Source of the DNA: a virus
Length of the DNA: 23,127 nt
IMG/VR virus record: IMGVR_UViG_3300042485_003792
Location: 1-23,127 of that record
Reading direction: 5' to 3' (one strand)
Part shown: piece after piece, positions 189 through 19,372 of the stretch
Numbering within the stretch: position 1 is the first letter of the stretch
Layout: every line of letters begins with the position of its first letter
Position numbers and translations under genes: made by a program
The notes under the pieces: model-generated
Seen by the model: only the letters and a program-made list of their open reading frames with translations
Database searches by the model: none
What the model was told of the DNA's origin: nothing

Positions 189-797
189 TTATATAATAGG
201 GCAGGTGCCCTTAGCGCATAGAATTTCTGTTAAAATTCCACTTGCTTTACTGTAATGGTTACTTGTGTTGTATTCTTTTCCTTCGCGCACTAAGTGCATA
301 TATGAACCTGGATTGGAAGGTGTAGAAACAAAATCCCAACATAGAAGTTCAAAGTCGTCTTGTACCTCTAGTGTACCTTCACTCATTTGTTTTAAAGAAC
401 CCATACCGCGAGAAGAAACACCTACTTGAACATTATTTTCAATTAATGCTTTTAAAATATTACCTGAAACAGTTGGTAGTATTTCTATCTTTCCTACTAC
501 GTGGTCTCCATCCCAAAAGATACTTCGGATAATATGAGATACGTTTTTAAGATTGATGATAGAGGAGTCTGGATGGTCTAGCTCACCTGTTGCTCTGTTT
601 TCTTTAACAACTTCCATGTATCTATCTATTTCGCGTTGCCATAGATCTTTTTTGTAGTAACGGCCGTTTCCGTTTTTAACTTCAGCCGTAGCTAAAATAC
701 CTTCTACAATGGGGTTGCCTGCTGGAGATTTAGTACCTTCAGTTAATTGAACAGGATTAACCTGAAACGCTTGGGTTTCAATTAATACTTGTTTCAT
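189..797 (-). CDS. gp21: Prohead core protease (T4 gp21-like)
   Basis: This is a 202-residue serine protease of the T4 gp21 type (T4 gp21 is 212 residues). In T4 it matures the prohead by cutting scaffold, capsid and internal proteins after (L/I)-x-E. Visible landmarks are GNGRYY near residues 43-48, the histidine motif GELDHPDS (H75), the core block FWDGDHVVGKIEI (94-106) and the nucleophile motif VGVSSRGMG (S128/S129). The start ATG overlaps the stop of the upstream gene by one base. Residues 5-7 (LIE) and the late segment HLVREG resemble its own target sequence, consistent with the self-processing known for gp21. It is the last gene before the terminator at 138-163. The substrate set proposed for this window depends on this protein. 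Confidence 0.93.
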   Translation of the reverse strand: MKQVLIETQAFQVNPVQLTEGTKSPAGNPIVEGILATAEVKNGNGRYYKKDLWQREIDRYMEVVKENRATGELDHPDSSIINLKNVSHIIRSIFWDGDHVVGKIEILPTVSGNILKALIENNVQVGVSSRGMGSLKQMSEGTLEVQDDFELLCWDFVSTPSNPGSYMHLVREGKEYNTSNHYSKASGILTEILCAKGTCPII

Positions 798-3425: not shown

Positions 3426-3441
3426 TCCTATTAGGATTTAT

Positions 3442-3449: not shown

Positions 3450-3460
3450 TATTGAGATAT

Positions 3461-5350
3461 TTAATCAGTCAGATTAGACTCATCTAATAACGATTCTTTA
3501 GCTTTATCGCTTTGGAATACTAGTTTTTTGTGAAGACCTTCCAATAATGTTCTATTTTTAGATAGTTCAAGTTTAGTACCTTCTAGCGCTAATGGTGAAC
3601 CACCTTTAAATTGAGTTCTACCTGTACCTTCTTGGTCGTCTTTTTTCATATCTTTTTTACCTAAACGATCTCTACCCAATGGGTTATCCTGAGTGTCTAT
3701 ATTAGATGCTTTTTCTTTAGGGCGACCTAATTCAGCTTTTTCATCGTACCCATCTGGTACTGAATTATCAGCGTATCTTTCTCTACCATATAAAGAAGCT
3801 AGATCGTGTGGTGTTCCGTATGAACGGCCAGTTTCGATCGGGTCATTACCTTCTTCAGCTATTTGTTGGTTACGGAATGCGCGTTTTTGGTCTTGGATAA
3901 TTAAATCTCGGTATTCATCGTATTGGTCCTGACTGAATTGGAATACGTTATCATAAATCCAATCTGATGGGATGATTTTAGTATCCAACATTTCTTTAGC
4001 TAGGGCTACTTTTTCTTTTAGTAGAGCAACTTTTTCTTGCTCTGCAATGATTGATGGAGTAGTTAACTTAAGTTCAAAGTTTGTTAATTGCTCACCATCA
4101 TATCCCTGTGAGTACAAGTGTACTAAAGCAATCTTGTATAGCTCAGATAATAGGATTCGTTGAATGCGGTCAATGGTGCGAGCAAAACGAATATCTTCAG
4201 CCGCTAACGTAGCCTTACCAGTTAAGTCTTTTTCATAGCCCATGAACGCTTTAGGTACCTTAAGGGCAGCAAATAGTTTATCTCTTAGGTAAGCTACGTC
4301 CTCGATACCATTGTATTCTAGACCTTTTGTAGTGTCTATTTTAGTTGCAGTGTCATTGCCTCTTACTGGGATGTAGAAATCCTCAAGTAGATTCTGCATG
4401 TTGTACTTTAAGTTATATTCACCTGTTTTTTCATCCATCAATGGAGTTTTCTTCATTGTGTTGATAGTTTTTTGCATAAATGCATCAACCTCTTGTGGTG
4501 GAATATTACCTACGTTGATATAGAAAATACGTTTTTCTGGGGCACGAGCAATACGGTGGATCAACATAGCATCCTCCATCAACACATATTGCTTAAATAA
4601 GCGACGTCCTGGTTCAAGATATGAACGACCATAGGGAAGATAATTTACATCCGTTAATAAGCGGAAGTGAGCTACCTCGTAGTTATCAAATACAATCTGA
4701 TTTTCAGATGGTTTAGTATTTGGAGTAGCATAGTAACCTGAACCACCCGTATAGTATCCATCGGGAGAATAAAGGAATTGAACTTTTGCTGGGTTTTCCA
4801 TGTCAAAGTTTTCGCGTCTTTGAATATGGTATGCTGTATAAGGAATTACGTTATATACACCAAATTTTTCTGCGATCTCTAGCTTTAAGAAAAAATCACC
4901 GTATTTACACATTTGACGAACCCAAGACCATAGATTAAACTCAATGTTAAGTACATCGTAAAATAGATTATAAAGGATTTTTTGAATATCATCGTCGCTA
5001 CTTCTAATTTGAAGTACCTCTCCCATATCGTTCTTTAAAGTACATTCATCCGAGATAATATCAAGGGCAGAAGCTACAATAGCATCGGTATCCATTACAT
5101 CGTAATCACTATAAAGATAAGTTCTTAGATACTGATATTGTATGTTGAATTGTGAACCTAAAAGAGATGTAGAGGCTGGGTTAGTGTAGATTTTTCCAAA
5201 CCTATCTACTAGAGAATTTGTTTGGAATTCACCACTGGTTTGGATATGATCCGTATCAACTACTTTTAGCTGACTTCCACCCTCGTTTCTGATGATTACA
5301 TCAGTTGAAAAGAGTCTTCTTAATCGGGAAAATAAACTAGTATCAGCCAT
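3461..5350 (-). CDS. gp20: Portal vertex protein (T4 gp20-like)
   Basis: This 629-residue protein forms the dodecameric DNA channel at the unique head vertex, where terminase docks and the neck attaches. T4-family landmarks are visible: YLRTYLYSDYDVMDTD (74-89), the block RAPEKRIFYINVGNIP (269-284), IEDVAYLRDKLF followed by AALKVPKAF (349-369), and the downstream helix GKATLAAEDIRFARTIDRIQ (378-397). It is about 100 residues longer than T4 gp20 (524). The extra length is largely a charged, low-complexity C-terminal tail from about 500 onward (KKDMKKDDQEG, LLDESNLTD). It follows terminase after a 24-base gap containing a TATTTATA motif. The identification is firm. Confidence 0.96.
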   Translation of the reverse strand: MADTSLFSRLRRLFSTDVIIRNEGGSQLKVVDTDHIQTSGEFQTNSLVDRFGKIYTNPASTSLLGSQFNIQYQYLRTYLYSDYDVMDTDAIVASALDIISDECTLKNDMGEVLQIRSSDDDIQKILYNLFYDVLNIEFNLWSWVRQMCKYGDFFLKLEIAEKFGVYNVIPYTAYHIQRRENFDMENPAKVQFLYSPDGYYTGGSGYYATPNTKPSENQIVFDNYEVAHFRLLTDVNYLPYGRSYLEPGRRLFKQYVLMEDAMLIHRIARAPEKRIFYINVGNIPPQEVDAFMQKTINTMKKTPLMDEKTGEYNLKYNMQNLLEDFYIPVRGNDTATKIDTTKGLEYNGIEDVAYLRDKLFAALKVPKAFMGYEKDLTGKATLAAEDIRFARTIDRIQRILLSELYKIALVHLYSQGYDGEQLTNFELKLTTPSIIAEQEKVALLKEKVALAKEMLDTKIIPSDWIYDNVFQFSQDQYDEYRDLIIQDQKRAFRNQQIAEEGNDPIETGRSYGTPHDLASLYGRERYADNSVPDGYDEKAELGRPKEKASNIDTQDNPLGRDRLGKKDMKKDDQEGTGRTQFKGGSPLALEGTKLELSKNRTLLEGLHKKLVFQSDKAKESLLDESNLTD

Positions 5351-5366
5351 TTGTGTGTTTTATTAT

Positions 5367-5374
5367 TATAAATA
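5367..5374 (-). promoter_or_regulatory. TATTTATA motif between terminase and portal (candidate late promoter)
   Basis: The motif directly abuts the terminase stop codon (TGATATTTATAATAATAAA) and ends 16 bases before the portal ATG at 5350. No Shine-Dalgarno sequence is present in the remaining leader (AAAACACACAAATG). Confidence 0.45.
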
Positions 5375-6940
5375 TCAAAGGAGCCAACGGAGATCTTCCT
5401 GCTGATTGCCTATTTTTTGTGTATATGGATTTTGGACAGCGTTGCCTGAATATGCTCCTCCGTGTGTTTTTGTCATCCCGTTTAAAGCAGCTCGGGTCAT
5501 GTCTAAACCGTGTTGCTGGAATTTAAGTGATGTGTCTCTTAAAAGCATTCCAATACCAAACGACATTACTAAATCATCGTTGTATCCGCTTTGTGCCTCT
5601 GGTCTACCGTTTTTCCAAATGAATACTTTCATTTCCTCTAGTAAACGTTTTGAGTGAATTGTTACAGAACGATCGCCAATATATTCTCTAAACTTGTTTA
5701 CCACAAGTGGTCTGGTTTTTAGCGACATTGTAAAACCAGGGGTTAAATTATTACCAAATTCATATCGGTTAAAATACGAATCAGCTGTCACTAAGTCACT
5801 CTTGGGTGACTGGTAGAAGTTTTGATAGCCGCGTTCTATAACAGTTTCTATTGTTGCCCAACCTATTGAGGCGTTCTCTACTACCAATAGAGCATTATTG
5901 TATTCGGCGGCTAGTCCTACTAGAAAATGTCCGAATTCTTTTGGCGATAATTGTCCCTTGTATTCGGCAACTTGGGTGTTTGTTTCAATATCGAGCACGT
6001 GAGCGGCCGAAAAGTCTCTACCATCACCCCTAGCCACGTCGGCTACAACCATGTAATCTCGCGAATAATCAGCAGGTTGCCAAACCCATAGGTTCTTGTC
6101 TGCCCCGCGTCTTTCAACCGGTTCTTTAACGGTAGTTTGGGCTATAAATTCGATCCATTCGGGATAGAATACCGTTTCTCCCGAGGTACTAAAATCACAG
6201 TCACATTCCTGTGCTGCCATTCTAGGATCACCTAGAAGTTCATCTTGTCGTTTCCTCCACGCCTCGTCCCTCTCCGGGTGTACGTACCAAGGTAACTTGA
6301 TAGGTAAGAAGTCGTTCTCTGCTGCTTCCGCTCTTACCCATTGCTGGTGGAACCAGTTTCCAGTTCCATAGGGGGTTGAGAGTACTATTGCTCCACCACC
6401 CGTTGCTAGTGTTTGTTGTGCTGATGCCCATATTTCTCCGATGTTTTCGATAAACGCGGCCTCATCCACTATAAGCAAAGATACTGCTTCTGATCGACCA
6501 GCATCACCTGCTGCCGATACTGCTTTGATTTGAGAACCGTTATTTAATCTTAATGTTAATTTGTTATTTTCGTCTGATGGTACTTTAAGCCATGAAGGTA
6601 GGTTTTCATACATGAATTTTACCTTGGTTACCATGTTTTTAGCTGTTTCCTGTTTTGTAGCTAAACAAAGTATGTTTTTGTCTTTATGGAAAGTCATCAT
6701 CCATAAAGAATATCCGGCCGCTAAAGTTGAAATACCTAACTGGCGAGATTTAAGTACAACCGAATATGGGTTTTCTTTCCAAAGGTTAAGTACCTTACCT
6801 TGGAATGGAAATAGATTGAAGACAACACGGCCACGTTGGGGGTGTTGAATATAACAGTATTTGCGTAGAAAGTGAGCCGGATCTTGGGCGCATTTTACGT
6901 ATTCCTGTTGTATTATTTTTCTTAAATCCTGATCACTCAT
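5375..6940 (-). CDS. terL: Terminase large subunit, ATPase and nuclease (T4 gp17-like)
   Basis: This 521-residue packaging motor cuts concatemeric DNA and drives it into the prohead through the portal. The ATPase domain shows the adenine-binding Q (FPFQ, 45-48), a Walker A-type loop SRQLGIST (65-72), Walker B LLIVDE (155-160) and the coupling motif LSTP (187-190). The RNase H-like nuclease domain has the acidic triad in VADVARGDGRDF (D301), VVENASIG (E355) and GYNDDLVMS (D455/D456). T4 gp17 has SRQLGKTT at the P-loop; here the lysine position is isoleucine, a variation that also occurs in other phage terminases. The protein is about 90 residues shorter than T4 gp17 (610). The start overlaps the upstream gene by 4 bases (ATGA), with AGGA just upstream. 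No intein is visible. Confidence 0.97.
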   Translation of the reverse strand: MSDQDLRKIIQQEYVKCAQDPAHFLRKYCYIQHPQRGRVVFNLFPFQGKVLNLWKENPYSVVLKSRQLGISTLAAGYSLWMMTFHKDKNILCLATKQETAKNMVTKVKFMYENLPSWLKVPSDENNKLTLRLNNGSQIKAVSAAGDAGRSEAVSLLIVDEAAFIENIGEIWASAQQTLATGGGAIVLSTPYGTGNWFHQQWVRAEAAENDFLPIKLPWYVHPERDEAWRKRQDELLGDPRMAAQECDCDFSTSGETVFYPEWIEFIAQTTVKEPVERRGADKNLWVWQPADYSRDYMVVADVARGDGRDFSAAHVLDIETNTQVAEYKGQLSPKEFGHFLVGLAAEYNNALLVVENASIGWATIETVIERGYQNFYQSPKSDLVTADSYFNRYEFGNNLTPGFTMSLKTRPLVVNKFREYIGDRSVTIHSKRLLEEMKVFIWKNGRPEAQSGYNDDLVMSFGIGMLLRDTSLKFQQHGLDMTRAALNGMTKTHGGAYSGNAVQNPYTQKIGNQQEDLRWLL

Positions 6941-8273: not shown

Positions 8274-8290
8274 ATATATTATAGTTTTCT

Positions 8291-8298
8291 TATAAATA
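8291..8298 (-). promoter_or_regulatory. TATTTATA motif at gene junction (candidate late promoter)
   Basis: The coding strand reads TGATATTTATAAGAAAAC, with the motif abutting the stop of the P-loop kinase gene (8299) and ending 17 bases before the AT-hook protein ATG at 8273. Confidence 0.45.
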
Positions 8299-9481: not shown

Positions 9482-10848
9482 GCTACATAATGGCTAATAA
9501 ATTCCGGATATTCGGTATCGCGAAGGTAATAAGAAAGAACGTCCTCGGCAACGTATATTGCCTGAGCTCCTGAAACTGTTATACCTCTAGCTGATAATGC
9601 ATCTCCTACAAAGTGTACATTGGGGAACTTGGTTAGAGACAAGTTGCGGTAGTTTACAAGTGGTTCAGGTGAAAGATATTTTACCTCGGGAACGTAAATA
9701 CCCCAATCGTCTTTTAATGTAGGGAATACTTTTTTCATATCCTCGATAAAGTCCATAATATAGTTCCAATATTCACCCATTACATGTTCTACTCCACTTA
9801 AATTATCGATTTGGAAAGCTGTAACATTGTTTCCTTCTGCTGTGGTAGATGGAACTCGAGTTGGTGAATAATATAAACCAGTACCATTAAACTGAAGCTT
9901 ATTTACTACATCACGTGACCAAGTAAATGGATCTTCAATGCCATTGATTTCCATCAAGATGCCAAAATTGGTCATCCCGTTTAGATATTTTGGATCTTTT
10001 TTAGCGTGACCATTATAGCTGTGGTCACCATATGTTTCCTCTACAGCAACGTACGCAGCATTATTGTTTGTACAGAATGAGCGAAGTGAAACACCTTTAT
10101 CGTCAAATTTTCTATACAACTTAAAATCATATGAAATATCAATTAGTTTTTGAAAGTGTTTTTGTGGTGCCTCAAAACGTACTCCAATTTGAACTGATTT
10201 AGGTTCATCTGGTAGTTCATATTGGTTAGCCAATTGTTGAGCAAAATCAATACCTGATTTACCTACACCAAAGATAAGTTCATCATAAAATACCCCATCA
10301 TTATCCATAGTTGCAAATTCGGGTTTAACCGAATGCATTACAACCTCGTTGTGTCTGAAGTTAATACTGGTTACCTTGGTTTCCCATTTAAACTCTACAC
10401 CTTTAGACACTAAATAATCATACCAGTTTTTAGCAATTTCAGATAGATAATCTGTACCTACGTGCCAAACTGGAAACAAACGCAAACCAAAATATGGTTT
10501 AATAAATTCGGGTTCTGTATCTGGATTTGAGCATTGTACTTCTTCTGGTTTAGGGTGGAAACGCTTGAAATTAGTGATAACTTGATCCATCAATTCCATT
10601 GCTTTTTCCTCACCACAATACTTAGATAACTGACCACCAATGGCTGTGTGGTAGGTTAGTTTACCATCTGACCATCCTCCGGCACCTAAAAATCCAGTCA
10701 TTACCTCTTCGGGTAAACGGTTATATGGGTCTTTACCCATATCAATGATTGTGATTAGTTCACCAGGATACCCGCTATCAACCAGTTTGGTTGCAGCATT
10801 AACTCCTGCTACACCTGCACCTACAATTACGATTTTCTTTTCCTTCAT
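9478..10848 (-). CDS. FAD-dependent oxidoreductase (COG2509-like)
   Basis: This 456-residue flavoprotein has an N-terminal Rossmann dinucleotide-binding motif VGAGVAGVNAA (9-19), then GFLGAGGWSDGKLTYHTAIG (52-71), whose GxxSDGKL block is typical of uncharacterised FAD-dependent dehydrogenases. A second nucleotide-binding strand reads ELIFGVGKSGIDFAQQL (about 190-206), and the C-terminal FAD motif is NVHFVGDALSARGITVSGAQ (about 410-429). Substrate and partner are unknown. Such an enzyme is unusual in a late structural operon. It is first in a tightly coupled set with a small hypothetical, a cupin and a P-loop kinase. Its ATG is about 28 bases beyond the terminator hairpin, with an A-rich leader (AACAAATAAAAATATG) and no Shine-Dalgarno sequence. 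Confidence 0.93.
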   Translation of the reverse strand: MKEKKIVIVGAGVAGVNAATKLVDSGYPGELITIIDMGKDPYNRLPEEVMTGFLGAGGWSDGKLTYHTAIGGQLSKYCGEEKAMELMDQVITNFKRFHPKPEEVQCSNPDTEPEFIKPYFGLRLFPVWHVGTDYLSEIAKNWYDYLVSKGVEFKWETKVTSINFRHNEVVMHSVKPEFATMDNDGVFYDELIFGVGKSGIDFAQQLANQYELPDEPKSVQIGVRFEAPQKHFQKLIDISYDFKLYRKFDDKGVSLRSFCTNNNAAYVAVEETYGDHSYNGHAKKDPKYLNGMTNFGILMEINGIEDPFTWSRDVVNKLQFNGTGLYYSPTRVPSTTAEGNNVTAFQIDNLSGVEHVMGEYWNYIMDFIEDMKKVFPTLKDDWGIYVPEVKYLSPEPLVNYRNLSLTKFPNVHFVGDALSARGITVSGAQAIYVAEDVLSYYLRDTEYPEFISHYVA

Positions 10849-10973
10849 ATTTTTATTTGTTACGCGTTAAGATAATAAAAAGCTGTGACATCTCCAAATT
10901 TGGTGACGCCACAGCTGTCAAAATTTTTAATAAGCGACTGGCTATGAATCAGTCTAAATAGTAAATTTTCAGT
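10849..10973 (-). other. Intergenic spacer holding the terminator upstream of the FAD gene
   Basis: This 125-base gap contains, on the minus strand, a weak small stem GACTG/CAGTC (10936-10954), the long hairpin terminator (10876-10916) and then the short AT-rich leader of the FAD oxidoreductase gene. No TATTTATA motif lies between terminator and ATG, so how the FAD gene is transcribed (read-through or another promoter type) is not evident. No tRNA or ORF is seen. Confidence 0.6.
10876..10916 (-). terminator. Strong hairpin terminator after the Gly-rich gene
   Basis: Positions 10881-10916 fold into one long hairpin: AGCTGTG pairs with CACAGCT, the next five positions (GCGUC against GAUGU in RNA) pair using two G-U wobbles, and after one A-A mismatch CC/GG plus AAATTT close the top. 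On the minus strand the stem is followed by TTTTTATTATC. The U-run orientation fits termination of leftward transcripts about 60 bases beyond the stop of the gene at 10974. On the other strand a T5 run lies about 8 bases away, so weak bidirectional activity is possible. Confidence 0.85.
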
Positions 10974-11717
10974 TTATGTAACAAATTTATATATAGGAAA
11001 AGCTCCTCCAGGTTTAAAATTAGAGGGAATATCTAAAATAAAATCCCCACCACCTAGATCTTTAGGTGCTAAAAATATACCACCTATACTGGCTACTGCT
11101 CCTGCTAATTTTTCTTCTCCTCCCGCACTATTATCAGTTGCCCCAAAATTTCTAATTAAAAAATCAGCTTGGTCTCCTGGGTCGGTATAAATTATGGGAG
11201 TATAAGCTCCTGAATCGCTTGGATCATCTTCGGCTGTCCAATACCATCTTACTTCTTTCATTCCTTTTTCAGGACTTCCTATAAATGATCCTGTTAATAA
11301 TATAATACCTCCTCCTACACCAAAATCATAATTACCACCATCAATAAAAAATGAAGGTAAAATTGTGGGTCCTTCTCCAGCTAAATTTCCATTAAAAGAT
11401 GGATTATATAATACAGTTTGAACTGGTTGGCCCCCTAAACTAGCACTATATGCATCTTGTCCATTTATAGCTCTAGCTGTGTTGGGGTCAGTTGTAGGGG
11501 CAGATGAGCCTGTAGCCCATGTTAAGCCCTGGTCTATAATAGTTACTCCTATATCACCATTAGATCCTGAAATTCTCCAGAATTTAGTACAAGGGGCTCC
11601 TCCAGGTGCACCAATAAAATAAGTACGATCAGGATCATTAACTACACCTGCTAGACCCCCGGCTAATGATTGAGTGGGGTACCAAAAAACATATCCTGTT
11701 GTTACGTAGTTAGCCAT
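10974..11717 (-). CDS. Gly/Ser-rich beta-type protein, possible virion appendage
   Basis: This 247-residue protein is low in charge, rich in Gly, Ser, Thr, Pro and aromatic residues, and starts MANYVTTGYVFWYPTQSLAG. Short glycine-rich turns recur (FGVGGGIILLTGSF, 131-144; AGAVASIGGIFL, about 205-216; DLGGGDFILDIP). It has no leader, signal or catalytic motif. The composition resembles tail-fibre, spike or other extracellular phage proteins, but no family is recognised. It is coupled by a one-base overlap to a mini-cupin gene and is the last gene before a strong terminator. Confidence 0.8.
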   Translation of the reverse strand: MANYVTTGYVFWYPTQSLAGGLAGVVNDPDRTYFIGAPGGAPCTKFWRISGSNGDIGVTIIDQGLTWATGSSAPTTDPNTARAINGQDAYSASLGGQPVQTVLYNPSFNGNLAGEGPTILPSFFIDGGNYDFGVGGGIILLTGSFIGSPEKGMKEVRWYWTAEDDPSDSGAYTPIIYTDPGDQADFLIRNFGATDNSAGGEEKLAGAVASIGGIFLAPKDLGGGDFILDIPSNFKPGGAFPIYKFVT

Positions 11718-11977
11718 TATTCTTTATATATTTTAATTTTAAGTGGTCCCTCCCCTTTAATGGTTCGGTGCCACATACCTCGTGGTATAAATATATGAGA
11801 GTTTAGTAAAGCTGGCAATTGGTTATCTAATTGAACCATCCAATTTATTCCCTCTAAAATCTCTATAGTACGATCTTCATCGTCCCGATGCCATAATAGC
11901 TCAATCGGGTCTATGTTCTCGTTGAACTCCCTAATGATGTATTGGTCTGTAATCTCTAGATCAGTGTATGGGGTCAT
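11717..11977 (-). CDS. Mini-cupin (single double-stranded beta-helix)
   Basis: This 86-residue protein has a compact cupin-like pattern: ELLWHRDDEDRTIEILEG (26-43), where H30 and D33/E34 could be metal ligands, followed by WMVQLDNQLP and the closing motif IFIPRGMWHRTIKG (62-75) with H70. Short WHRDxEDR cupins occur widely in T4-like phages of aquatic bacteria. No substrate can be assigned. It shares one base with the downstream Gly-rich gene and follows the kinase-like gene by 20 bases (leader AAAAATATGATTAACC), placing it in the same transcript. Confidence 0.8.
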   Translation of the reverse strand: MTPYTDLEITDQYIIREFNENIDPIELLWHRDDEDRTIEILEGINWMVQLDNQLPALLNSHIFIPRGMWHRTIKGEGPLKIKIYKE

Positions 11978-11997
11978 GTTATAGGTTAATCATATTT

Positions 11998-12513
11998 TTA
12001 TATTGCTAAATCAAAAATTTTAAGATCTCCATTATTATCAACTCCAATATTACCTGTATGAAAATCAATAGATTTATTAGGAAATACATTTAATACATCT
12101 TGAGTAAATTTAATATATTTTAAAAGAGAATTATATACAGATTTATTATTTTTTGTTTTATTTAATAATGTATCTATTTCAGATGAATCATTATTTTTTA
12201 ATAAATAATAAATCATTGTCATAGGATCTTTATCTCGCCACACGTTAATTTGTTCTAAATAGTTTAAAACATTACTAAGATCAGGCATGTCATATAATCT
12301 ATCCATAATAACATATGATTTAGTTAATTCATATATTTTAGGAAATATATCAAGATGTTTATTAAATTGATTATAAAAATATAATTCATCTTGAGTGAAA
12401 CCATCTAAAAAATTACTTTGTTTTTTAATTTTATCTTTACCTATAGCATATACTTTACCTTGTTCTCCTCTACCCAAGTATGTTTCTTTTAATATGTCTG
12501 ATAGTTTAATCAT
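11998..12513 (-). CDS. Minimal protein-kinase-like protein with capsid-targeting-like leader
   Basis: This 171-residue protein shows the kinase signature in order: glycine loop LGRGEQGKVY (13-22), a Lys cluster DKIKKQ (27-32) in the beta-3 position, a candidate alpha-C Glu (E43 in QDELYFY), hinge VIMDRL (68-73), catalytic loop IDFHTGN (149-155) and metal-binding FDLA (167-170). D150, N155 and D168 keep the exact spacing of PKA D166, N171 and D184. The chain ends three residues after D168, so the activation segment and most of the C-lobe are absent. The leader MIKLSDILKE ends L8-K-E10, as in gp21 targets. The gene is visibly more AT-rich than its neighbours. It could be a head-delivered kinase or a pseudo-kinase; protein and small-molecule substrates are both possible. 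Confidence 0.82.
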   Translation of the reverse strand: MIKLSDILKETYLGRGEQGKVYAIGKDKIKKQSNFLDGFTQDELYFYNQFNKHLDIFPKIYELTKSYVIMDRLYDMPDLSNVLNYLEQINVWRDKDPMTMIYYLLKNNDSSEIDTLLNKTKNNKSVYNSLLKYIKFTQDVLNVFPNKSIDFHTGNIGVDNNGDLKIFDLAI

Positions 12514-13133
12514 TTTATAGAAGTTTCATTCATATCGTAATAAAAAGAATCTCCATCTTCGGTAACCCATCTATCTGATTGGTTTTCCACGCTTGGAAGT
12601 TCTGTATCTACCTTATATTGCTTTAGATTCTCTGGGAGTGGTTTGGTTACCCAGTTTGAGTCTTTCCAGAATATTCTATTATTGGGCATACACATTAAAT
12701 ACCCTTCGTCTGATTCGAATATATGACCACATTTGTAATCTGTTGGTTCATCGCTATATGGATTATTGAACCAATCTACTGTAAACATATAGGTGCCCCA
12801 AACTTTATTTCCGTCTCTTAAAACAATTTGTGCTCTATGATATGCTAAAAAGCTATATTCTATAATAGCTACGTTTTCACTAAAACAATCCCATAACTGT
12901 TTAAAATTAAATGGAATGTCGTTTGTTGGGATTTCTGTATAAATTTCGGAAAGTGGAACACGAGAACGAATCATCCCGTTATCTGTCATAACATGAAATG
13001 TTAATATAGTTCCAGCGCATGATTGAAGACCAAAAACGTATACATTATAGAATTCGTTATGATCTTCTTGGTTTTTTGTAAAATATGATTTACGAACTAG
13101 CGCTTTAAAGCTAGGGATGTTTGCGTTAAGCAT
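12510..13133 (-). CDS. Conserved-type hypothetical protein of T4-like aquatic phages
   Basis: This 207-residue, aromatic-rich protein starts MLNANIPSFKALVRKSYF and contains the blocks TFHVMTDNGMIRSRVPLSEI (45-64), FKQLWDCFSENVAIIEY (77-93), VWGTYMFTVDWFNNPYSDEP (111-130) and a C-terminal SDRWVTEDGDSFYYD. From memory, similar proteins occur in T4-like cyanophages and other aquatic myoviruses without known function; this was not checked. Mixed alpha/beta composition, no membrane segment and no gp21-type leader. It overlaps the kinase-like gene by 4 bases and the upstream gene by one base. Confidence 0.85.
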   Translation of the reverse strand: MLNANIPSFKALVRKSYFTKNQEDHNEFYNVYVFGLQSCAGTILTFHVMTDNGMIRSRVPLSEIYTEIPTNDIPFNFKQLWDCFSENVAIIEYSFLAYHRAQIVLRDGNKVWGTYMFTVDWFNNPYSDEPTDYKCGHIFESDEGYLMCMPNNRIFWKDSNWVTKPLPENLKQYKVDTELPSVENQSDRWVTEDGDSFYYDMNETSIK

Positions 13134-13459
13134 TAGTTTTCTCTTATAAGAAGTTCACCTAATACCTCCATTTTACCTACCTGTCTTTGAAACTCGTTTT
13201 GGTTCATATCTAGGGATATGCTCTTTAGGATTTCAGCAAATTCTTTTTTAGCTGCCTCTTTATCAAATTTTCCGTTTATGGCTTTTTTGTAGTATGGAGC
13301 CTTAACATAAAAGTGATTGTAAGTTAACATTGCTAAACCACCTTTTTCTTCTGCAGTTGATGCTATTTTAGCAGCTCCTGCTGCACGTGTGGTAGCAAAT
13401 TCTTCAAAAGTTTCTTTTGTTTTTTTTGCTTCGGTTAGTAGTTGGAGTAGTTTAATCAT
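13133..13459 (-). CDS. Small putative internal head protein
   Basis: This 108-residue protein begins MIKLLQLLTEAKKTKE, where L8-T-E10 followed by A11 fits the gp21 site and the first residues form a short hydrophobic helix. The mature part has an Ala-rich helix (ATTRAAGAAKIASTAEEK, about 22-39), the block GGLAMLTYNHFYVKAPYYKK (40-59) and a Lys-rich helical C-terminus. Its leader is nearly the same as that of the kinase-like protein (MIKLSDILKE). The ATG is preceded by AAAATAAAATAAA. Function unknown; head localisation inferred. Confidence 0.82.
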   Translation of the reverse strand: MIKLLQLLTEAKKTKETFEEFATTRAAGAAKIASTAEEKGGLAMLTYNHFYVKAPYYKKAINGKFDKEAAKKEFAEILKSISLDMNQNEFQRQVGKMEVLGELLIREN

Positions 13460-13473
13460 TTTATTTTATTTTA

Positions 13474-14085
13474 TCACCAGAATCCTGAGAAGTTAGACTT
13501 CAAACCTAAAAGTTTAGCATAACGTGGTAAACGGCAGCTCCAGTATGAAGCCTTTGTTCTATCTTTTTTATTAGGACAATCATGACGTGCTGAAAATGCT
13601 TTACGTGCTTGTGGATTGTTTATCTTAGCTGATAGACCTGTTGTATCACCAAATGATATTTTTTTAGTTCCACCACCTGGTTTTCTTACGTAGACATAGA
13701 ATTTTTTAGAGCCACCACGCTTTGGTTTACCAATTGGAGGGTCTTTTTTCTTTTTATCTGCCTCGTTTACTTCTACCTCCTCGAAGATAAAATCTAAAGG
13801 AACTTTTTTATCCTCATACATACCAAAATGACCTAGATCAGTTTCAGTTAGTATCTCTAAATCATCTCCTTGTACCTCAATGATGTTACGGCTGTATAAA
13901 GCGCGTGCTTCTGCCCATAAATTGAAATAGCTTTCCGAGCCTGCACGATATATGTGCTCTGTAAGAGGTCGTGCGTTATCTAAGTGATATTTCAACCCCT
14001 CGGAAAGGATTGCTCTTGGTGCTACACTTTCGTTTAGCATCACTGGTTTTTTAGTATCGCAAGTATTGCAGCCGCAGTCACACAT
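13474..14085 (-). CDS. Virion-type protein with N-terminal Cys cluster and basic Cys-pair C-terminus
   Basis: This 203-residue protein starts MCDCGCNTCD, four cysteines at residues 2, 4, 6 and 9 that could bind metal. It then has several (L/I)-x-E sites (L17-N-E19, L27-S-E29 followed by G30), a helical region (PLTEHIYRAGSESYFNLWAE, 40-59) and an acidic stretch. A basic C-terminal domain (about 111-203) includes KPKRGGSKKFYVYVRKPGGG and the Cys pair C170/C184 in ARHDCPNKK and SYWSCRLPRYAKLLGL. Similar domains are, as I recall, common in virion-associated proteins of T4-like aquatic phages. L27-S-E29|G30 may remove the Cys cluster on maturation. The role is unknown. Confidence 0.85.
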   Translation of the reverse strand: MCDCGCNTCDTKKPVMLNESVAPRAILSEGLKYHLDNARPLTEHIYRAGSESYFNLWAEARALYSRNIIEVQGDDLEILTETDLGHFGMYEDKKVPLDFIFEEVEVNEADKKKKDPPIGKPKRGGSKKFYVYVRKPGGGTKKISFGDTTGLSAKINNPQARKAFSARHDCPNKKDRTKASYWSCRLPRYAKLLGLKSNFSGFW

Positions 14086-14087
14086 AT

Positions 14088-15062
14088 CTATAAAAATAAA
14101 TTCTTAAAGTTCATACCTAGTTCTGAAGATGAGACATAAACCCCACTTAAGATTCTTTCGACATCTATAGCATCTACTACAGCATCATTCATAAGATAAA
14201 ATTTACCTTTTCCTTTTTCACTTACGTTTAAGATATACCCTATATCTTTACCCATTCTAGGTTTTTTGTAGAGTTTGTTAGATAGTACTCTTTTTAAAAG
14301 TTTAGCAGCACCTTCTTTAGCAGTAGCTTCAGGTGATATATCTAATTTATTATATAGCGAATCAATACTTTTATATAGGGGCTCAAACATATCTATATCT
14401 CTTAGTGACTTGTTTTTTTCAAAACTAGACATTATATCGAATGCTGGGACTATATCCATTGCTTTAAAGTTACCTGGGTTAACTGTGATTTGGGAGTTTT
14501 CGTCAAATTCACTAAATAGAGTTAAGATGCCAAATACTTTGTTTAACAAAGCAACGTTTTCTTTATCGCCGGCAAATTTACCTAATGTGATATTGGATGT
14601 CTCGTATGATTTGATTTCGCACCCAATACCATCAATGGTTAAATCCGGGTCTTCTCCTTTTCTAGAGTCTGTAACGTTATGTCTATTGACATTATATTCA
14701 AACGCCCAGTAAGTAGCAATTTCTCCTTTACCAGCTCCTGCTGTTGGAATTTCGCTATCTTTTTTTAGTGGGAGAGTTGAATATAATTGTACCCAAATTT
14801 TTTCGTCTTCTCCACCTAAGTTAAAATCATCACCTAAACTTAAGGGAGTATTACAAGTTGGAATTTTTTCGCCTTCTTTTAAATTTAAAGCTTTACGAAT
14901 TCTGATATCATAATCTGCTTGTGCCTCGTTGATGATAATTTCACCCATAAAATTTTCAGCTAGTTCAAATAACATAGCTTTATCTTTTGAATCGTTCATG
15001 TCAGGATATCCTTTTGGGAATTTCCAAGCTACACTTTTGATAAATTTATCCAAATTATCCAT
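14088..15062 (-). CDS. PD-(D/E)XK nuclease-like late protein
   Basis: This 324-residue protein has, after an N-terminal helical segment (1-46), GAGKGEIATYWAFEY (109-123) and then DPDLTIDGIGCEIKSYE (138-154). P139-D140 followed after eight residues by E149-I-K151 fits the PD-(D/E)XK nuclease core, and E114 in the preceding helix fits the extra acidic residue seen in many members. The C-terminal half (165-324) is helical with a basic patch (LLKRVLSNKLYKKPRMGKD). I44-N-E46 followed by A47 (IIINEAQAD) could be a gp21 cut releasing the nuclease-like part. It might cut host DNA after ejection, or process DNA during packaging. The fold is assigned by motif only. Confidence 0.83.
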   Translation of the reverse strand: MDNLDKFIKSVAWKFPKGYPDMNDSKDKAMLFELAENFMGEIIINEAQADYDIRIRKALNLKEGEKIPTCNTPLSLGDDFNLGGEDEKIWVQLYSTLPLKKDSEIPTAGAGKGEIATYWAFEYNVNRHNVTDSRKGEDPDLTIDGIGCEIKSYETSNITLGKFAGDKENVALLNKVFGILTLFSEFDENSQITVNPGNFKAMDIVPAFDIMSSFEKNKSLRDIDMFEPLYKSIDSLYNKLDISPEATAKEGAAKLLKRVLSNKLYKKPRMGKDIGYILNVSEKGKGKFYLMNDAVVDAIDVERILSGVYVSSSELGMNFKNLFL

Positions 15063-15532
15063 TATGCTACTGGTTCAGCTACTGGTTCAGCTACTGGTTC
15101 AGCTACTGGTTCTTCTATTGAGGTTTCTGTTTCTGTTCCTGTTTCTGTTCCTTCAGTAGATGCTTCTGTTTTACCTCCGTAACGTAATATACGAGCTATA
15201 GATTCACAAGCCGATTCTTCCTCGTTTAGGTTAAGTAGATAGTATTTTTTACCTTCTATTTGAGCAATAAAAGTTTTAGGTGTATAAATAAGATAGAAAT
15301 CTTGTCCGTTTTTTAAATTAATACGGAAAGTAGTAGGACGAGGAGCAACCCAATCAATTGAGGCTAAAAAGTAGTCGAAATCTGCTGTAAGTAAATCGAC
15401 TATAACTTTTTTGAGTTCTGGAAATTTGGTTAGTTCATCGTACTCGGCAGCAGCAACGTCAGCCTTAAGTCTGCCTTTATAGACATCCTTAGCTAACGTT
15501 TTAATTTTTGCTACAAGATCTTCACGAGTCAT
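15062..15532 (-). CDS. Late protein with EPVA repeat tail
   Basis: This 156-residue protein has a helical N-terminus (1-50) and a small beta-rich core (WVAPRPTTFRINLKNGQDFY, 61-80; AQIEGKKYYLLNLNEEE, 90-106). It ends in a Thr/Glu-rich linker (TEGTETGTETETS, 126-138) and four EPVA units. The linker and tail are low-complexity and encoded by a 12-base tandem repeat, so the tail length could change by slippage. The core resembles uncharacterised structural proteins of T4-like aquatic phages. It is coupled by one-base overlaps on both sides. Confidence 0.83.
   Translation of the reverse strand: MTREDLVAKIKTLAKDVYKGRLKADVAAAEYDELTKFPELKKVIVDLLTADFDYFLASIDWVAPRPTTFRINLKNGQDFYLIYTPKTFIAQIEGKKYYLLNLNEEESACESIARILRYGGKTEASTEGTETGTETETSIEEPVAEPVAEPVAEPVA
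15066..15113. repeat. 12-bp tandem repeat, four copies
   Basis: Three exact copies of GCTACTGGTTCA are followed by a fourth ending in T (GCTACTGGTTCT). The repeat encodes EPVA units at the C-terminus of the 15062-15532 protein. It ends next to a second imperfect repeat of TTCTGTTTCTG type (about 15125-15150) coding the TETGTETET stretch. Unit length is a multiple of three, so copy changes keep the frame. Confidence 0.95.
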
Positions 15533-16197
15533 TATCTAGCTTTTAATTGTTTAGCTATTCTTTCAGCTAATGTTTCCGTTCTTTTTTCGTTTATCTCTAT
15601 ACCAGTGCTATTTAAAGCATCTGAAGCATCAATAACATCTACAGCAGCATCGATTTCTGGTTCTTTTAATTCGAAATCAAGGTAGTGCTTAGCACTAGAC
15701 ATCATTTCTTTTGCCTTGATGATTTTAGATTGCCACCAATGTGGAAAATCAACTTCACCTTTACCCTCAAACTGATCTACCATTTGGTAAAGATTCATAG
15801 CGTATTTTCCAATATGGTATAAATCGCTTTTAAGCATGTGTGGTTCGTCGTCTTCGTGTCCTAGATCAAGATCCTCGTTAGCTGGTTTAGCTTTAGAGAT
15901 GATGGCTTTTTGTAGGCCATCAGGTAAATTCTTTTGACCACCTTTTAAGGCAGGATCGCTATCGAATTCTTTAGAGAAGCCTGCTTTTTCTTGCATTAAA
16001 GCTGCTCTTACTAGCTCTTTTAGATTTGATTGTTCCATTTGTGTTTCTGTTACTTTTTTTGCTATATTGGTAGCGCGACCATACATTACTTTTTCTGCAT
16101 CTGAACCATAACGTTTAACAAGCCCACGCTTATTTTTTTTCATCTTCATGATAACGTCTTCGCGTTTAGCTAGTTCAGCTGAGGAAAGTTTTGCCAT
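15532..16197 (-). CDS. Two-module putative internal/core protein
   Basis: This 221-residue protein carries a basic N-terminal module (KREDVIMKMKKNKRGLVKRY, 11-30; MYGRATNIAKK, 38-48), a short helix like the leaders of neighbouring genes (NLKELVRAALMQEKAG, 58-73, with M68-Q-E70), and a second module with SDLYHIGKYAMNLYQMVDQF (124-143) and FPHWWQSKIIKAKEMM (151-166) leading to HYLDFE. Both modules recur, as I recall, in different combinations in late proteins of T4-like aquatic phages. The buried leader suggests a two-part protein that could be cut around residue 70. Its function is unknown. Leader sequence AAATAAAATGGC, no Shine-Dalgarno. Confidence 0.82.
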   Translation of the reverse strand: MAKLSSAELAKREDVIMKMKKNKRGLVKRYGSDAEKVMYGRATNIAKKVTETQMEQSNLKELVRAALMQEKAGFSKEFDSDPALKGGQKNLPDGLQKAIISKAKPANEDLDLGHEDDEPHMLKSDLYHIGKYAMNLYQMVDQFEGKGEVDFPHWWQSKIIKAKEMMSSAKHYLDFELKEPEIDAAVDVIDASDALNSTGIEINEKRTETLAERIAKQLKAR

Positions 16198-16207
16198 TTT
16201 ATTTTAT

Positions 16208-16567
16208 TTAGAATATATCTTCAAATTCTTCTACATCTTGTCCTTGTAACGTTGCAAGGGCTTCTATTGCTTCTTCTCTATTTAAAATACCTTTATCAAT
16301 ATGAATTTGCAAAGCTTTAACTTGAGTATCTAATGAATCGCCTTCATCGTAAAATTTAAGCATATACTTATCATATTTTTCTTGAAAATCATCAACTGGC
16401 ATTTTAGAAACATTAGTGAGATTAGCCTTTATATAATCTATTTCTTCATCTGAAGCATTAGACATAAGAGCATTATTTGGATCTACCATTATAGCAGTGT
16501 CTACTATTATTGCTTCTTTTAATAGTTTACCTTCAGCTAAATATTTTCTAAGATCAAAATTGCTCAT
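16208..16567 (-). CDS. Putative internal head protein, copy A of the FDLxKYLAEGKLLKE pair
   Basis: This 119-residue acidic protein begins MSNFDLRKYLAEGKLLKE. The leader has two possible gp21 cuts, L10-A-E12 followed by G13 and L16-K-E18 followed by A19. The mature part is helical and acidic (DEEIDYIKANL, 40-50; EEAIEALATLQGQDVEEFED near the end). It shares its leader and upstream DNA with the next gene upstream (16588-16947), which has the same length but a different body. The gene is distinctly AT-rich. Its function is unknown. Confidence 0.8.
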   Translation of the reverse strand: MSNFDLRKYLAEGKLLKEAIIVDTAIMVDPNNALMSNASDEEIDYIKANLTNVSKMPVDDFQEKYDKYMLKFYDEGDSLDTQVKALQIHIDKGILNREEAIEALATLQGQDVEEFEDIF

Positions 16568-16577
16568 TTTATTTTTT
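16515..16577. repeat. Direct repeat copy 1: leader region of the 119-residue gene pair
   Basis: Sixty-three bases covering the first codons and the upstream AT leader match positions 16895-16957 with about six differences, at a spacing of exactly 380 bases. Similarity fades right after the leader codons. Confidence 0.9.
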
Positions 16578-16587
16578 AATTTAATAT

Positions 16588-16947
16588 TTAAACTAATCCA
16601 GCTTTTTCATAAACTGTATCATCAGATACGCCTATCCAATTAGCCTTTATAAAACTAGTTTCACTCATATCATCTATATATCTCTCTGAGAATTCAAAAT
16701 AATCTTCTTTACTAATATCTTTTCCTTCAGGAAATTCAGATTTAAAATCATTTAATATCTCTTCATCTTCATAACTCTTAAAAATGTCTAATACTTGATT
16801 ATAAGATATATTAGGTGCAGCCTTAAAAGCAGCATCTAAATCAACTAGATCTTCATCTTTATCATAATAAAGATCAACATTAAACCCTTCATTTTCTTTT
16901 AATAGTTTACCTTCGGCGAGGTATTTTTTAAGGTCAAAATTGCTCAT
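16588..16947 (-). CDS. Putative internal head protein, copy B of the FDLxKYLAEGKLLKE pair
   Basis: This 119-residue, very acidic protein begins MSNFDLKKYLAEGKLLKE, differing from copy A by one residue in the first 18. Candidate cuts are L10-A-E12|G13 and L16-K-E18|N19. The body (NVDLYYDKDEDLVDLDAAF, 23-41; SYEDEEILNDFKSEFPEGKD) has no clear similarity to copy A. The two genes therefore look like one leader joined to two cargoes. Its start lies only 11 bases beyond the stop of the Hc1-like ORF. The function is unknown. Confidence 0.8.
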   Translation of the reverse strand: MSNFDLKKYLAEGKLLKENEGFNVDLYYDKDEDLVDLDAAFKAAPNISYNQVLDIFKSYEDEEILNDFKSEFPEGKDISKEDYFEFSERYIDDMSETSFIKANWIGVSDDTVYEKAGLV

Positions 16948-16957
16948 TTTATTTTAT
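16895..16957. repeat. Direct repeat copy 2: leader region of the 119-residue gene pair
   Basis: This is the partner of 16515-16577. It includes the ATTTTATTTTATTTT tract upstream of the ATG and the codons for the shared N-terminus. Confidence 0.9.
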
Positions 16958-16958
16958 T

Positions 16959-17132
16959 TTATTTTGCTTTGTCTTCTGCAGTAGATGCCTTGCGGTATTC
17001 TGTTGCTAGTTTTTTAAGTTCACCTGCTATTTTACGAGCACGTCCGTGTGCTGCTTTAGCTGTTTTGTGGTGCTCGATGGTTAGAGTTTCTAAAACTGTT
17101 ACCATTTTGTCGTGTAGTTCTTGTGATGTCAT
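16959..17132 (-). CDS. Hc1-like histone H1-type small basic protein
   Basis: This 57-codon ORF starts MTSQELHDKMVTVLETLTIE and continues HHKTAKAAHGRARKIAGEL then KKLATEYRKASTAEDKAK. The pattern RARK-x-x-x-EL-x-KL-x-x-x-(F/Y)RK-x-S at residues 31-50 closely matches Hc1-family histone-like proteins (Chlamydia Hc1 and the short Bacteroidota homologues), which bind DNA non-specifically. It is short but has strong, uninterrupted amphipathic helical periodicity, fills an otherwise empty gap, and has stop and start spacing like its neighbours. Its stop lies inside the AT leader of the next gene. It could help condense phage DNA or alter host nucleoid structure. The family assignment is from memory of the motif. 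Confidence 0.8.
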   Translation of the reverse strand: MTSQELHDKMVTVLETLTIEHHKTAKAAHGRARKIAGELKKLATEYRKASTAEDKAK

Positions 17133-17151
17133 ATCTTTTATTTATTTAGTT

Positions 17152-17880
17152 TTATTTAATTTTATTCCACATTGGGAATGCGATCTCGTCTACTTTTGCT
17201 TTTGTTGGCTCATCACCTGCAACAACGAAGTCGCGAGTGAAGAAGGTAATTGTGTTACCAACCTGAGTGATGAATTTTTGATCGCCAAACTCTTCTGCTT
17301 GTGCTCTTAGAGTCTCTAGGGAGTCAAGGATTTTTCTTGTATCACTTGGAAGTGAAGATAAAGAAACAATTCTTTTATCTACTACGATTGAATCATTTGC
17401 TGGTTTTTCTTCTTCGCCACCTTCGTCTTCAACTTCTTCTTCGGCATCAATTTTAATATCTGCTTCTTCTTCAGCTTCGCTCAAGTCTTCAGCCATGTAT
17501 GGATCTGCTTTAGTACCTATAATGCGAGCTAGAATATCGTCTAGGCTTTCTTCTTTTTCTTCAGCTTCATACACATTATCGCCGCCATACATGCCTTGTA
17601 AGGCAGCATCGTCATCCATAGAATTTTCAGCCATGAAAGCAGATTTGATCATTTCTTTTAATTCGTTTCTTTTCATTTTTGTTGTTGGTTTTTTTATCTC
17701 ATCCATTCTGGATTGAATATAGTATTCAAAATCTTCTACTACATCATCCTCAGACATATCGCTGTAGTCGCCTCCACGTGATAGGACACGGTCTACAGAA
17801 TCTAAATATAGTTCCACTTCGCTATCTTGAGCGTTTGGAACTTGTTTACGGATAATTTTTTCAATTGATGATAAGTCCAT
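17152..17880 (-). CDS. Acidic scaffold-like late protein with a buried leader motif
   Basis: This 242-residue protein has a helical N-terminal part (1-65) with FEYYIQSRMDEIKKP. An internal MKRNELKEMIKSAFMAENSM (69-88) looks like the N-terminal leader of other late genes (compare MKMRISELKKAIREMI) and ends M-A-E. Next is a strongly acidic segment (about 105-165, including EEEADIKIDAEEEVEDEGGE) and a folded C-terminal domain (PSDTRKILDSLETLRAQAEE; NTITFFTRDFVV). Acidic low-complexity segments are typical of scaffold or core proteins. The buried leader suggests either an upstream fusion or a protease site near residue 85. A TATTTATA motif ends 13 bases before the ATG. Confidence 0.82.
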   Translation of the reverse strand: MDLSSIEKIIRKQVPNAQDSEVELYLDSVDRVLSRGGDYSDMSEDDVVEDFEYYIQSRMDEIKKPTTKMKRNELKEMIKSAFMAENSMDDDAALQGMYGGDNVYEAEEKEESLDDILARIIGTKADPYMAEDLSEAEEEADIKIDAEEEVEDEGGEEEKPANDSIVVDKRIVSLSSLPSDTRKILDSLETLRAQAEEFGDQKFITQVGNTITFFTRDFVVAGDEPTKAKVDEIAFPMWNKIK

Positions 17881-17893
17881 AGTGATAATTTGT

Positions 17894-17901
17894 TATAAAT
17901 A
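17894..17901 (-). promoter_or_regulatory. TATTTATA motif at gene junction (candidate late promoter)
   Basis: The coding strand reads ACATATTTATAACAAATT. The motif lies 5 bases after the upstream stop (17907) and ends 13 bases before the ATG at 17880. Confidence 0.45.
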
Positions 17902-17906
17902 TGTAT

Positions 17907-18185
17907 TTATTTGTTAAGGCGTACCTTTGCTTTGGGGGTGTTTTTAACAAACTGTTTACCTTTCTTGCTTCCTGCTACTTTTTTTCGCGATGTGGCTGCT
18001 CTTTCTGCTTTAGTTAAACTTAGTGCTTTTGATTTTGGTAAACAACGTGTTGTTGCTTTACCTGGTTTCATTGTACCACAAGGACCGGTTATGTTACCCG
18101 CAGTATCTATACGCACCCAGTTCTCTTTTTTGAACCAGTCGCGTAGCGATTCTGTAATTATCTCTTGTAGACGTTCGTTTGTCAC
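17907..18185 (-). CDS. Small basic protein with GPCGT/RCLPK Cys-pair module
   Basis: This 92-residue, strongly basic protein begins MTNERLQEIITESLRDWFKK, with I10-T-E12 followed by S13 as a candidate gp21 site. It continues with NWVRIDTAGNITGPCGT (22-38; C36), RCLPKSKALSLTKAERAATS (47-66; C48) and a Lys-rich end (SRKKVAGSKKGKQFVKN). The CGT...CLPK...KAERAA.S.KK module is, as I recall, frequent in late proteins of T4-like aquatic phages, alone or fused to others. Charge and size suggest nucleic-acid binding inside the head. It overlaps the upstream gene by 4 bases. Confidence 0.82.
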   Translation of the reverse strand: MTNERLQEIITESLRDWFKKENWVRIDTAGNITGPCGTMKPGKATTRCLPKSKALSLTKAERAATSRKKVAGSKKGKQFVKNTPKAKVRLNK

Positions 18186-18883
18186 CCCTTCATCTGCCCT
18201 TTACAAACCTTAACAGCACGACCTGAAAGATAAGCAGATGATTTTTCTCCTGCTGCTTGTCTTTTTTTGATGTATGCTTTACCTTTTGGGCAAAGTTCTT
18301 CGTAAATAACACCTTCACCTAAACGAATAGTTTCCTCTCTATCATCGTCTCCCATTGTGGCAATCTTTAACAAGATTTTATCCATAACATCCTGTGTTAA
18401 ACCTTGGGTTTTACCTTTTGGGTTTTCTGGGGTGGCTAGGTATTTTGAATAACCAGTCATTTCCTCAATGGGTTCACCTACAATATCTTGGTAATCTTCC
18501 ATTGATAAAAGACCTCTTAGCTTAACGGCCTCGATAGCGCGTTCTGTTACCTTATGTAGGTCAATATCCTGTTCAGCATCCTCTCTTGCGTACTCTAACA
18601 TACGAAGGAATAAAGGAACATCCATTGCAATAATGTCTGTTGGATCTTCTTGTTCTTCATTAATTTGATTTTTTAATTGAGCAATTCTTTGTTTTAATTG
18701 TTCAATTTTAGCATCTGCTCCTTTACTTCCAAATTGGTTAGAAAAACGTATAAGTCTACGTAATTCATCTTCTAAAGAAGATATACTATTGTAATCTGGT
18801 CCATCATCTTCTATATCAAATTCATAATACCCTTCACCCATAGGTTTAGCAAAGAATTCTTGTACTTTTTTTAGGTCTTCCAT
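18182..18883 (-). CDS. Multi-module late protein with C-terminal Cys-pair basic domain
   Basis: This 233-residue protein has four visible parts: an N-terminal leader-like segment (MEDLKKVQEFFAKPMGEGYY, with M15-G-E17|G18), a Leu/Ile heptad helix (LEDELRRLIRFSNQ through QLKQRIAQLKNQINEE, 38-77), a helical module DVPLFLRMLEYAREDAEQDI (88-107) with LHKVTERAIEAVK, and a basic end LCPKGKAYIKKRQAAGEKSS (197-216) closing with VCKGQMKG (C198, C227). The last two modules are ones I recall from other late proteins of aquatic T4-like phages. The Cys pairs parallel those at 13474-14085 and 17907-18185. Likely a head or core protein; the role is unknown. Confidence 0.83.
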   Translation of the reverse strand: MEDLKKVQEFFAKPMGEGYYEFDIEDDGPDYNSISSLEDELRRLIRFSNQFGSKGADAKIEQLKQRIAQLKNQINEEQEDPTDIIAMDVPLFLRMLEYAREDAEQDIDLHKVTERAIEAVKLRGLLSMEDYQDIVGEPIEEMTGYSKYLATPENPKGKTQGLTQDVMDKILLKIATMGDDDREETIRLGEGVIYEELCPKGKAYIKKRQAAGEKSSAYLSGRAVKVCKGQMKG

Positions 18884-18886
18884 TAT

Positions 18887-19342
18887 TTATCTTTTTACAA
18901 TTCTAACCATATAACCTCTATCATCATCTTCAACGTCAAACATTCTATACCCATCTTCAAACTTAGTTTCTCGTTCAGCATTAGCAAATGTAACTTTATC
19001 GTTTTCGTCTCCAAAAACATCAATTCTATTTGATGTTGGGTCAAATCTAAGTTCTGGATATTTTGGTTTAAGTTCAGAAGCTATTTTCTCTAAAGTAGAC
19101 TCTTCAGCTTCCTCGTTTAAAGGTTCCATACCTAACTCATCATGTAATACGTTCATAAAGGATTTAAAGTTTTGAGAACCGTATTCGTCCTTTAAAACCC
19201 TAGCTACAGCTTTAGCAAACTCTTTATATCCTAGATTTTCTGGTAGGGCATTATTTATAGCCTTAGCTATAGGATTTTGAAGTTCCTCCCCAGCTTCTGC
19301 TAGGTATCGTTGTTTATTCCATTTGGATACATCAAATCCCAT
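18887..19342 (-). CDS. Putative internal head protein with YLAE leader
   Basis: This 151-residue protein begins MGFDVSKWNKQRYLAEAGEE, with L14-A-E16 followed by A17, the same YLAE site as the 16208 and 16588 genes. The body has a helical module NPIAKAINNALPENLGYKEF (23-42), continuing AKAVARVLKDEYGSQNFKSF and MNVLHDELG, then a beta-rich C-terminus (RFDPTSNRIDVFGDENDKV; GYMVRIVKR). The first module is of a type I recall from marine T4-like phages. It is 3 bases from the next gene. Its function is unknown. Confidence 0.83.
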   Translation of the reverse strand: MGFDVSKWNKQRYLAEAGEELQNPIAKAINNALPENLGYKEFAKAVARVLKDEYGSQNFKSFMNVLHDELGMEPLNEEAEESTLEKIASELKPKYPELRFDPTSNRIDVFGDENDKVTFANAERETKFEDGYRMFDVEDDDRGYMVRIVKR

Positions 19343-19364: not shown

Positions 19365-19372
19365 TATAAATA
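19365..19372 (-). promoter_or_regulatory. TATTTATA motif at gene junction (candidate late promoter)
   Basis: The coding strand reads ACTAATATTTATAAACACAC. The motif abuts the stop of the zinc-ribbon gene (19373) and ends 22 bases before the ATG at 19342. Confidence 0.45.

Follow-up and report, generated by a model that had tools for sequence, protein, structure and literature searches.

The chlamydial histone-like protein HctA is about 126 amino acids long and, in the section of PMC3469542 that cites Pedersen 1996, its DNA-binding domain is placed in the C-terminal region. In phages, histone H1-like proteins with the Hc1 domain (Pfam PF07432) were published in 2025 from four complete moraphage genomes; the accessible parts of that paper (PMC12619734) describe moraphages as large aquatic phages with hosts that are mostly Bacteroidota by prediction, and already speculate on a role in packaging. 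This was the sole paper naming PF07432 that our literature search found, and the search found no paper on Hc1 in Flavobacterium phages. Two further sets of proteins are close to the gene described here, namely gp196 (YP_010114487.1) of Flavobacterium phage vB_FspM_immuto_2-6A (immuto) and the Hc1 copies on Bacteroidota chromosomes.

Here we describe an Hc1-domain gene of a T4-like virus, in a 23,127-base IMG/VR virus record, the whole of which was analyzed and is called the window (Table 1). The window protein and HctA have the Hc1 family in common; however, the window protein matches the Hc1 N-terminal region alone, its open reading frame (ORF) ending after a domain of the N-terminal type, and the C-terminal region ascribed to HctA in the cited section is absent. 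With the moraphage proteins the likeness is one of Pfam family only, and the accessible parts of the moraphage paper concern jumbo phages of 200-307 kb. Immuto gp196 is 49% identical to the window protein over 57 aa, and immuto likewise is T4-like, infects a Bacteroidota host, and has a related terminase, portal, and prohead protease. In contrast to the window gene, gp196 is found downstream of groES-groEL and at a great distance from the head cluster; it scores 21 bits, just below the Pfam cut-off, and is filed as a hypothetical protein. The gene had been called overlooked, which is apt for annotation, as the immuto copy illustrates, and deserves correction there, but does not hold for the literature, given the phage PF07432 proteins reported in the moraphage paper as far as it was accessible. 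New here are the spread of the family in T4-like aquatic phages, the several places in which the gene is found or missing, an architecture that lacks the tail, and immuto as a testable case: with immuto and Flavobacterium sp. LMO8, an isolated pair with an Hc1 copy is at hand in which the role of a tail-less Hc1 protein can be tested.

Table 1. Positions of the Hc1 gene and of surrounding features in the window
Feature	Position	Strand	Basis
Hc1-domain protein, two-helix hairpin	16959..17132	-	Pfam PF07432, 32.9 bits; pLDDT 98.1; pI ~10.1; dN/dS
Acidic 242-aa gene, directly upstream of the Hc1 gene	17152..17880	-	TATTTATA box ahead; synteny
Small protein, capsid-targeting-like N-terminus (MSNFDLKKYLAE, then G), paralogue of 16208..16567	16588..16947	-	Sequence, motif test
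Small protein, same N-terminal leader as 16588..16947	16208..16567	-	Sequence, motif test
Gene usually found next downstream of Hc1 at the window's site	15532..16197	-	Synteny; empty site in L305
Terminase large subunit (TerL), T4 type	5375..6940	-	PHROG 2, E 1.8e-50
Portal protein	3461..5350	-	PHROG 213, E 4.5e-63
Head maturation (prohead) protease	189..797	-	PHROG 207, E 2.3e-56
Leader genes (examples)	797-1471, 1740-1988, 11998-12513, 13133-13459, 16208-16567, 16588-16947, 17907-18185, 18887-19342	-	Motif test, window 189-19342
TATTTATA boxes	1992-1999, 3442-3449, 5367-5374, 8291-8298, 17894-17901, 19365-19372		Upstream of start codons

Family membership, coding, and host

The sequence-only reading had given the coordinates and the 57 residues of the ORF correctly and left out its strand: the gene is read from the minus strand and starts with ATG (MTSQELHDKM...YRKASTAEDKAK). 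A plus-strand reading of the same positions is interrupted by stops and was discarded. The HMM search that had been proposed for the suspected Hc1 match bore it out, the Pfam model (57 positions) matching residues 9-55 at 32.9 bits (E value, 5.7e-8) against a gathering cut-off of 23.5 bits, and the protein was above the cut-off in a further search as well. All 38 aligned viral members matched Hc1 at an E value of 0.01. In 15 of 20 long records PF07432 was above its cut-off, and the remaining five (immuto and groEL-site phages) fell below it, at 19-21 bits. A profile of the viral copies aligned with a profile of 11 chromosomal Bacteroidota Hc1 copies in hhalign with 97.1% probability (E value, 4.9e-11). 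On the Pfam score, the matches of all 38 relatives, and the chromosomal profile match, the window protein is assigned by sequence to the Hc1 domain family. Searches of other collections with the window protein returned weak matches alone in PHROGs (E values, 0.032 and 0.11), Mycobacterium phage matches (E value, 0.5) that we put down to chance, and no solved structure at an E value of 0.001 in a PDB sequence search.

A single-protein scan of viral contigs (126 candidate stretches) found the reading frame conserved in 64 loci, and an alignment scan (600 candidates) found it in at least 527, of which the best 80, those most similar to the window copy, were retained. Viral copies are 55-62 aa long, taking the annotated start for L066, and 10 columns (E5, K26, A32, R33, K34, K40, Y46, S50, E53, and K55) are invariant among the 38 aligned copies. 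The gene is under purifying selection, since dN/dS was 0.02-0.26 in the eight of nine comparisons with relatives for which dS was finite; for the remaining relative, L013, dS had reached saturation. ORF 16959-17132 is confirmed as a genuine gene. A short, helical sequence of low diversity that finds no match in NCBIfam could in principle be a composition artefact, either a lysine/alanine-rich helix matching Hc1 by chance or a non-coding frame. This explanation, to which we attach next to no weight, is refuted by the E value of 5.7e-8 above a curated cut-off, by the position-specific invariant residues, by the low dN/dS, and by the profile-level match to chromosomal Hc1.

The chromosomal Bacteroidota copies (e.g., L205 and L176) are about 58 aa long (mostly 58-60), like the window protein, and have with it a common KAAG/RK and LKK-type core. 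Flavobacteriales copies end in [DE]FRKVSVEESKK, close to YRKASTAEDK in the window, whereas L176-type copies have EIRxEIQ in place of YRKAS. The YRKAS pattern that had been tied to Bacteroidota is thus recognizable as FRKVS in the Flavobacteriales and was over-stated as a general signature of the phylum. In an Hc1 tree of 85 rows and 61 columns, used for the broad clustering of viral copies only, the chromosomal L205 and L176 fell outside the viral cluster, as far as so few columns can place them. Three rows from bacterial bins fell inside it: L070 has phage gene order; L069, which has no assigned neighbours, can by inference be taken as a phage contig; and L075, from a Flavobacteriales metagenome-assembled genome (MAG), looks chromosomal. 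In L075 a phage-like, YRKSS-type Hc1 gene (positions 2995-3168) lies between genes that by eye resemble those for ribosomal protein S2 and EF-Ts, unexpected surroundings for a histone-like gene.

A Bacteroidota-type host, as had been suggested, is supported by three lines of evidence. First, the closest isolates to the window phage are Flavobacterium phages. Second, a Shine-Dalgarno-like core was found upstream of none of the 32 window genes, and the upstream bases are A-rich; A-rich upstream stretches without a Shine-Dalgarno core are expected in Bacteroidota. Third, PF07432 is present in 148 of 247 sampled Bacteroidota genomes, the phylum of a Flavobacteriales MAG, and in 2 of 80 genomes in the phylum of a Marinimicrobia genome; searching the order of that Flavobacteriales MAG with the viral profile gave relatives in 26 of 148 genomes. 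Hc1-domain proteins are common in the sampled Bacteroidota genomes and are carried by many aquatic phages, with at least 527 viral stretches.

Placement of the gene in phage genomes

Of 144 viral loci from both scans (64 plus the best 80 of at least 527), 98 distinct neighbourhoods were obtained and their sites grouped by hand, five being placed by a single assigned neighbour; the counts lean to the window's site because the alignment scan retained the matches most similar to the window copy. Among the matches listed, 48 of the 98 neighbourhoods had the gene at the window's site, flanked by homologues of the 17152 and 15532 genes or with local changes to that arrangement, so that conservation at the same place, a check that had been proposed, was indeed found. 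It lay upstream of terL in 19 neighbourhoods, with homologues of the 11717 and 9478 genes on either side; between the prohead protease and scaffold genes in 10, the protease homologue immediately preceding it in L008, L013, L016, L163, and L165; after groEL in 16; and elsewhere in 5. The head and packaging region, with three of the four main sites, thus holds 77 of the 98 listed neighbourhoods. The head-gene setting that had been read from the window stands, with portal, terminase, and prohead protease named by PHROGs and synteny in relatives, but a fixed position in a head operon does not, and a fixed link to head genes is ruled out by the groEL and other sites. No partner gene was conserved across sites among these 98 neighbourhoods.

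The gene is also absent where its flanks are present. In L305 the homologue of the 17152 gene ends at 13420 and that of the 15532 gene starts at 13422, with no Hc1 gene between them, and the two homologues adjoin in L309 too; none of the eight loci examined for empty sites yielded an Hc1 gene. Among 20 records chosen for a related TerL (18 of the 80 loci listed for such a terminase and two phage records), 6 carry the gene. Of the 14 that lack it, one is the complete genome of Microcystis phage Mel-JY01 (190 kb) and another is a 484-kb record; the others are fragments in which absence could reflect truncation. Given the several sites, the empty sites, and this patchy presence, the Hc1 gene is an accessory gene that changes place. 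It is present as a single copy in 19 of the 20 long records and as two in the 634,780-base jumbo phage LR745206.1 (L068), whose PF07432 genes score 61 and 26 bits; the 26-bit gene follows one that is RecA/UvsX-like by eye.

Predicted hairpin and candidate roles

The predicted fold of the window protein is a two-helix hairpin (helices 3-22 and 26-56; pLDDT, 98.1). At positions K26, R33, K34, K40, K41, R47, K48, and K55, 95% or more of the sequences have a basic residue, and these residues cluster on a single face of helix 2, across the helix from its hydrophobic face. The charge moment of helix 2 was 6.4 against a shuffle mean of 3.1, a value reached by 2.6% of shuffles, so the asymmetry is only moderately unusual. 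The calculated pI is 10.1 (family range, 7.2-10.3), and the net charge is modest (+12/-8). Foldseek searches of PDB and BFVD returned generic helical hairpins alone, none at an E value of 0.001 or better.

We propose, with a probability of roughly 0.55, that the Hc1 protein would act in trans in the infected cell as a protein of the nucleoid-associated type, self-associating and contacting DNA through its basic face. On the predicted model, the hairpin would probably self-associate via the hydrophobic face, presumably as a dimer, and helix 2 may contact nucleic acid along its conserved basic face (K26, R33/K34, K40/K41, R47/K48, K55). The protein would most likely act on DNA, either that of the host nucleoid or replicated phage DNA, and is less likely to be a dedicated part of the capsid. 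The Pfam and profile matches, the high-confidence hairpin, the basic pI, the basic face of helix 2, and the single copy in nearly all long records favour this proposal, and a gene that changes sites while its sequence is conserved suits a trans-acting product without fixed partners. Against it stand the missing C-terminal region, the site of the DNA-binding domain in HctA, together with the modest net charge, the only moderately unusual charge asymmetry, and the lack of a structural match at an E value of 0.001. DNA compaction, which had been put forward from the sequence, is left as a candidate function, since the protein spans no more than the N-terminal region of Hc1.

More tentatively, and clearly with less confidence than in the general proposal, the tail-less gene could be a movable single-gene cassette, inserted repeatedly into capsid operons and behind groEL of Bacteroidota-type T4-like phages, whose dimerized hairpin would bridge DNA late in infection. 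The dimer would align its basic faces, and replicated phage DNA might thereby be organized or the host nucleoid shut down. If so, the phages would have a nucleoid protein that does not need the C-terminal region with which chlamydial Hc1 binds DNA.

The same hairpin might instead be a dimerization or docking module that acts on another protein, with no role at nucleic acid. The part matched is the Hc1 N-terminal region, the only domain type present, which in the title of a 1996 paper by Pedersen is reportedly a potential dimerization site. Such an adaptor could serve capsid assembly, the chaperonin, or the transcription or translation machinery, and it would fit groEL as the neighbour in 16 of the 98 listed neighbourhoods and the position of the chromosomal relative in L075 between the S2- and EF-Ts-like genes. 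However, no partner gene is kept across sites in those neighbourhoods, and conservation is strongest at the basic residues of helix 2, in chromosomal relatives as well. We therefore regard an adaptor as improbable and retain the nucleoid-associated reading.

Head-region leaders and a putative late box

By our tiling the window contains 32 minus-strand genes, with 678 intergenic bases in total. Ten of these genes encode N-terminal leaders, defined as ending in [LI]xE followed by A, G, S, T, or N, compared with 2.5 expected, and none of 1000 shuffles reached this number. Capsid-targeting sequences of T4 that are cut by the prohead protease are leaders of the same type. In immuto, leaders were found in 13 of 30 genes tested in the head region (52 listed) and in none of 24 tested around the Hc1 gene (26 listed). 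These motifs suggest that many different proteins, the products of the leader-bearing window genes, may be enclosed in the head. One of them, the 92-aa product of 17907-18185 (minus strand), combines a leader-type site (ITE/S) with a lysine-rich C-terminus and is a candidate basic internal head protein.

This setting raises the alternative that the Hc1 protein is itself a small basic internal head protein that is packed alongside the genome and delivered into the next host by ejection, a role for which the internal proteins of T4 provide the comparison. Its neighbourhood is rich in leaders of the prohead-protease type, and 77 of the 98 listed neighbourhoods are in the head and packaging region, 10 of them between prohead protease and scaffold. 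The motif test, however, ruled out a capsid-targeting leader ending in an [LI]xE site on the window Hc1 protein, and in the 14 of 38 family members that do have the motif it mostly falls at residue 15, within helix 1, so that cleavage there would disrupt the hairpin. Moreover, 16 of the listed neighbourhoods follow groEL even in a sample biased to the window's site, and because the head position is not fixed, it is by itself no evidence for a role in the virion or in packaging. We consider an internal head protein unlikely and favour a nucleoid-associated protein acting in the infected cell.

The box TATTTATA, read on the coding strand, lies 3-22 nt upstream of starts in six of its eight occurrences in the window, compared with 0.34 expected within 30 nt. 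In the immuto head region six of eight occurrences are likewise upstream of starts, mostly by 16-17 nt, against 0.28 expected. The box precedes the portal gene, the 17152 gene, and other head-region genes, and is possibly a late promoter element; it corresponds to the T4 late box TATAAATA in reverse complement. The Hc1 gene has no TATTTATA box of its own; it is probably co-transcribed with the head and packaging genes, and its expression would then be late.

Several neighbours merit description. At the window's site, the gene next upstream of Hc1 is usually a homologue of the 17152 gene; the product of the 17152 gene itself had no family match better than an E value of 0.99 in Pfam and PHROGs and no tblastn match in phages. 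The window terminase large subunit is 59% identical to that of immuto. Adjoining the head genes, 7512-8273 (minus strand) encodes a basic 253-aa protein with a GRRGRPK stretch that resembles an AT-hook; it is another candidate DNA-binding phage protein. Finally, 9478-10848 (minus strand) encodes a 456-aa FAD/NAD-type oxidoreductase (Pfam Pyr_redox_2) that is kept near the terminase gene in relatives.
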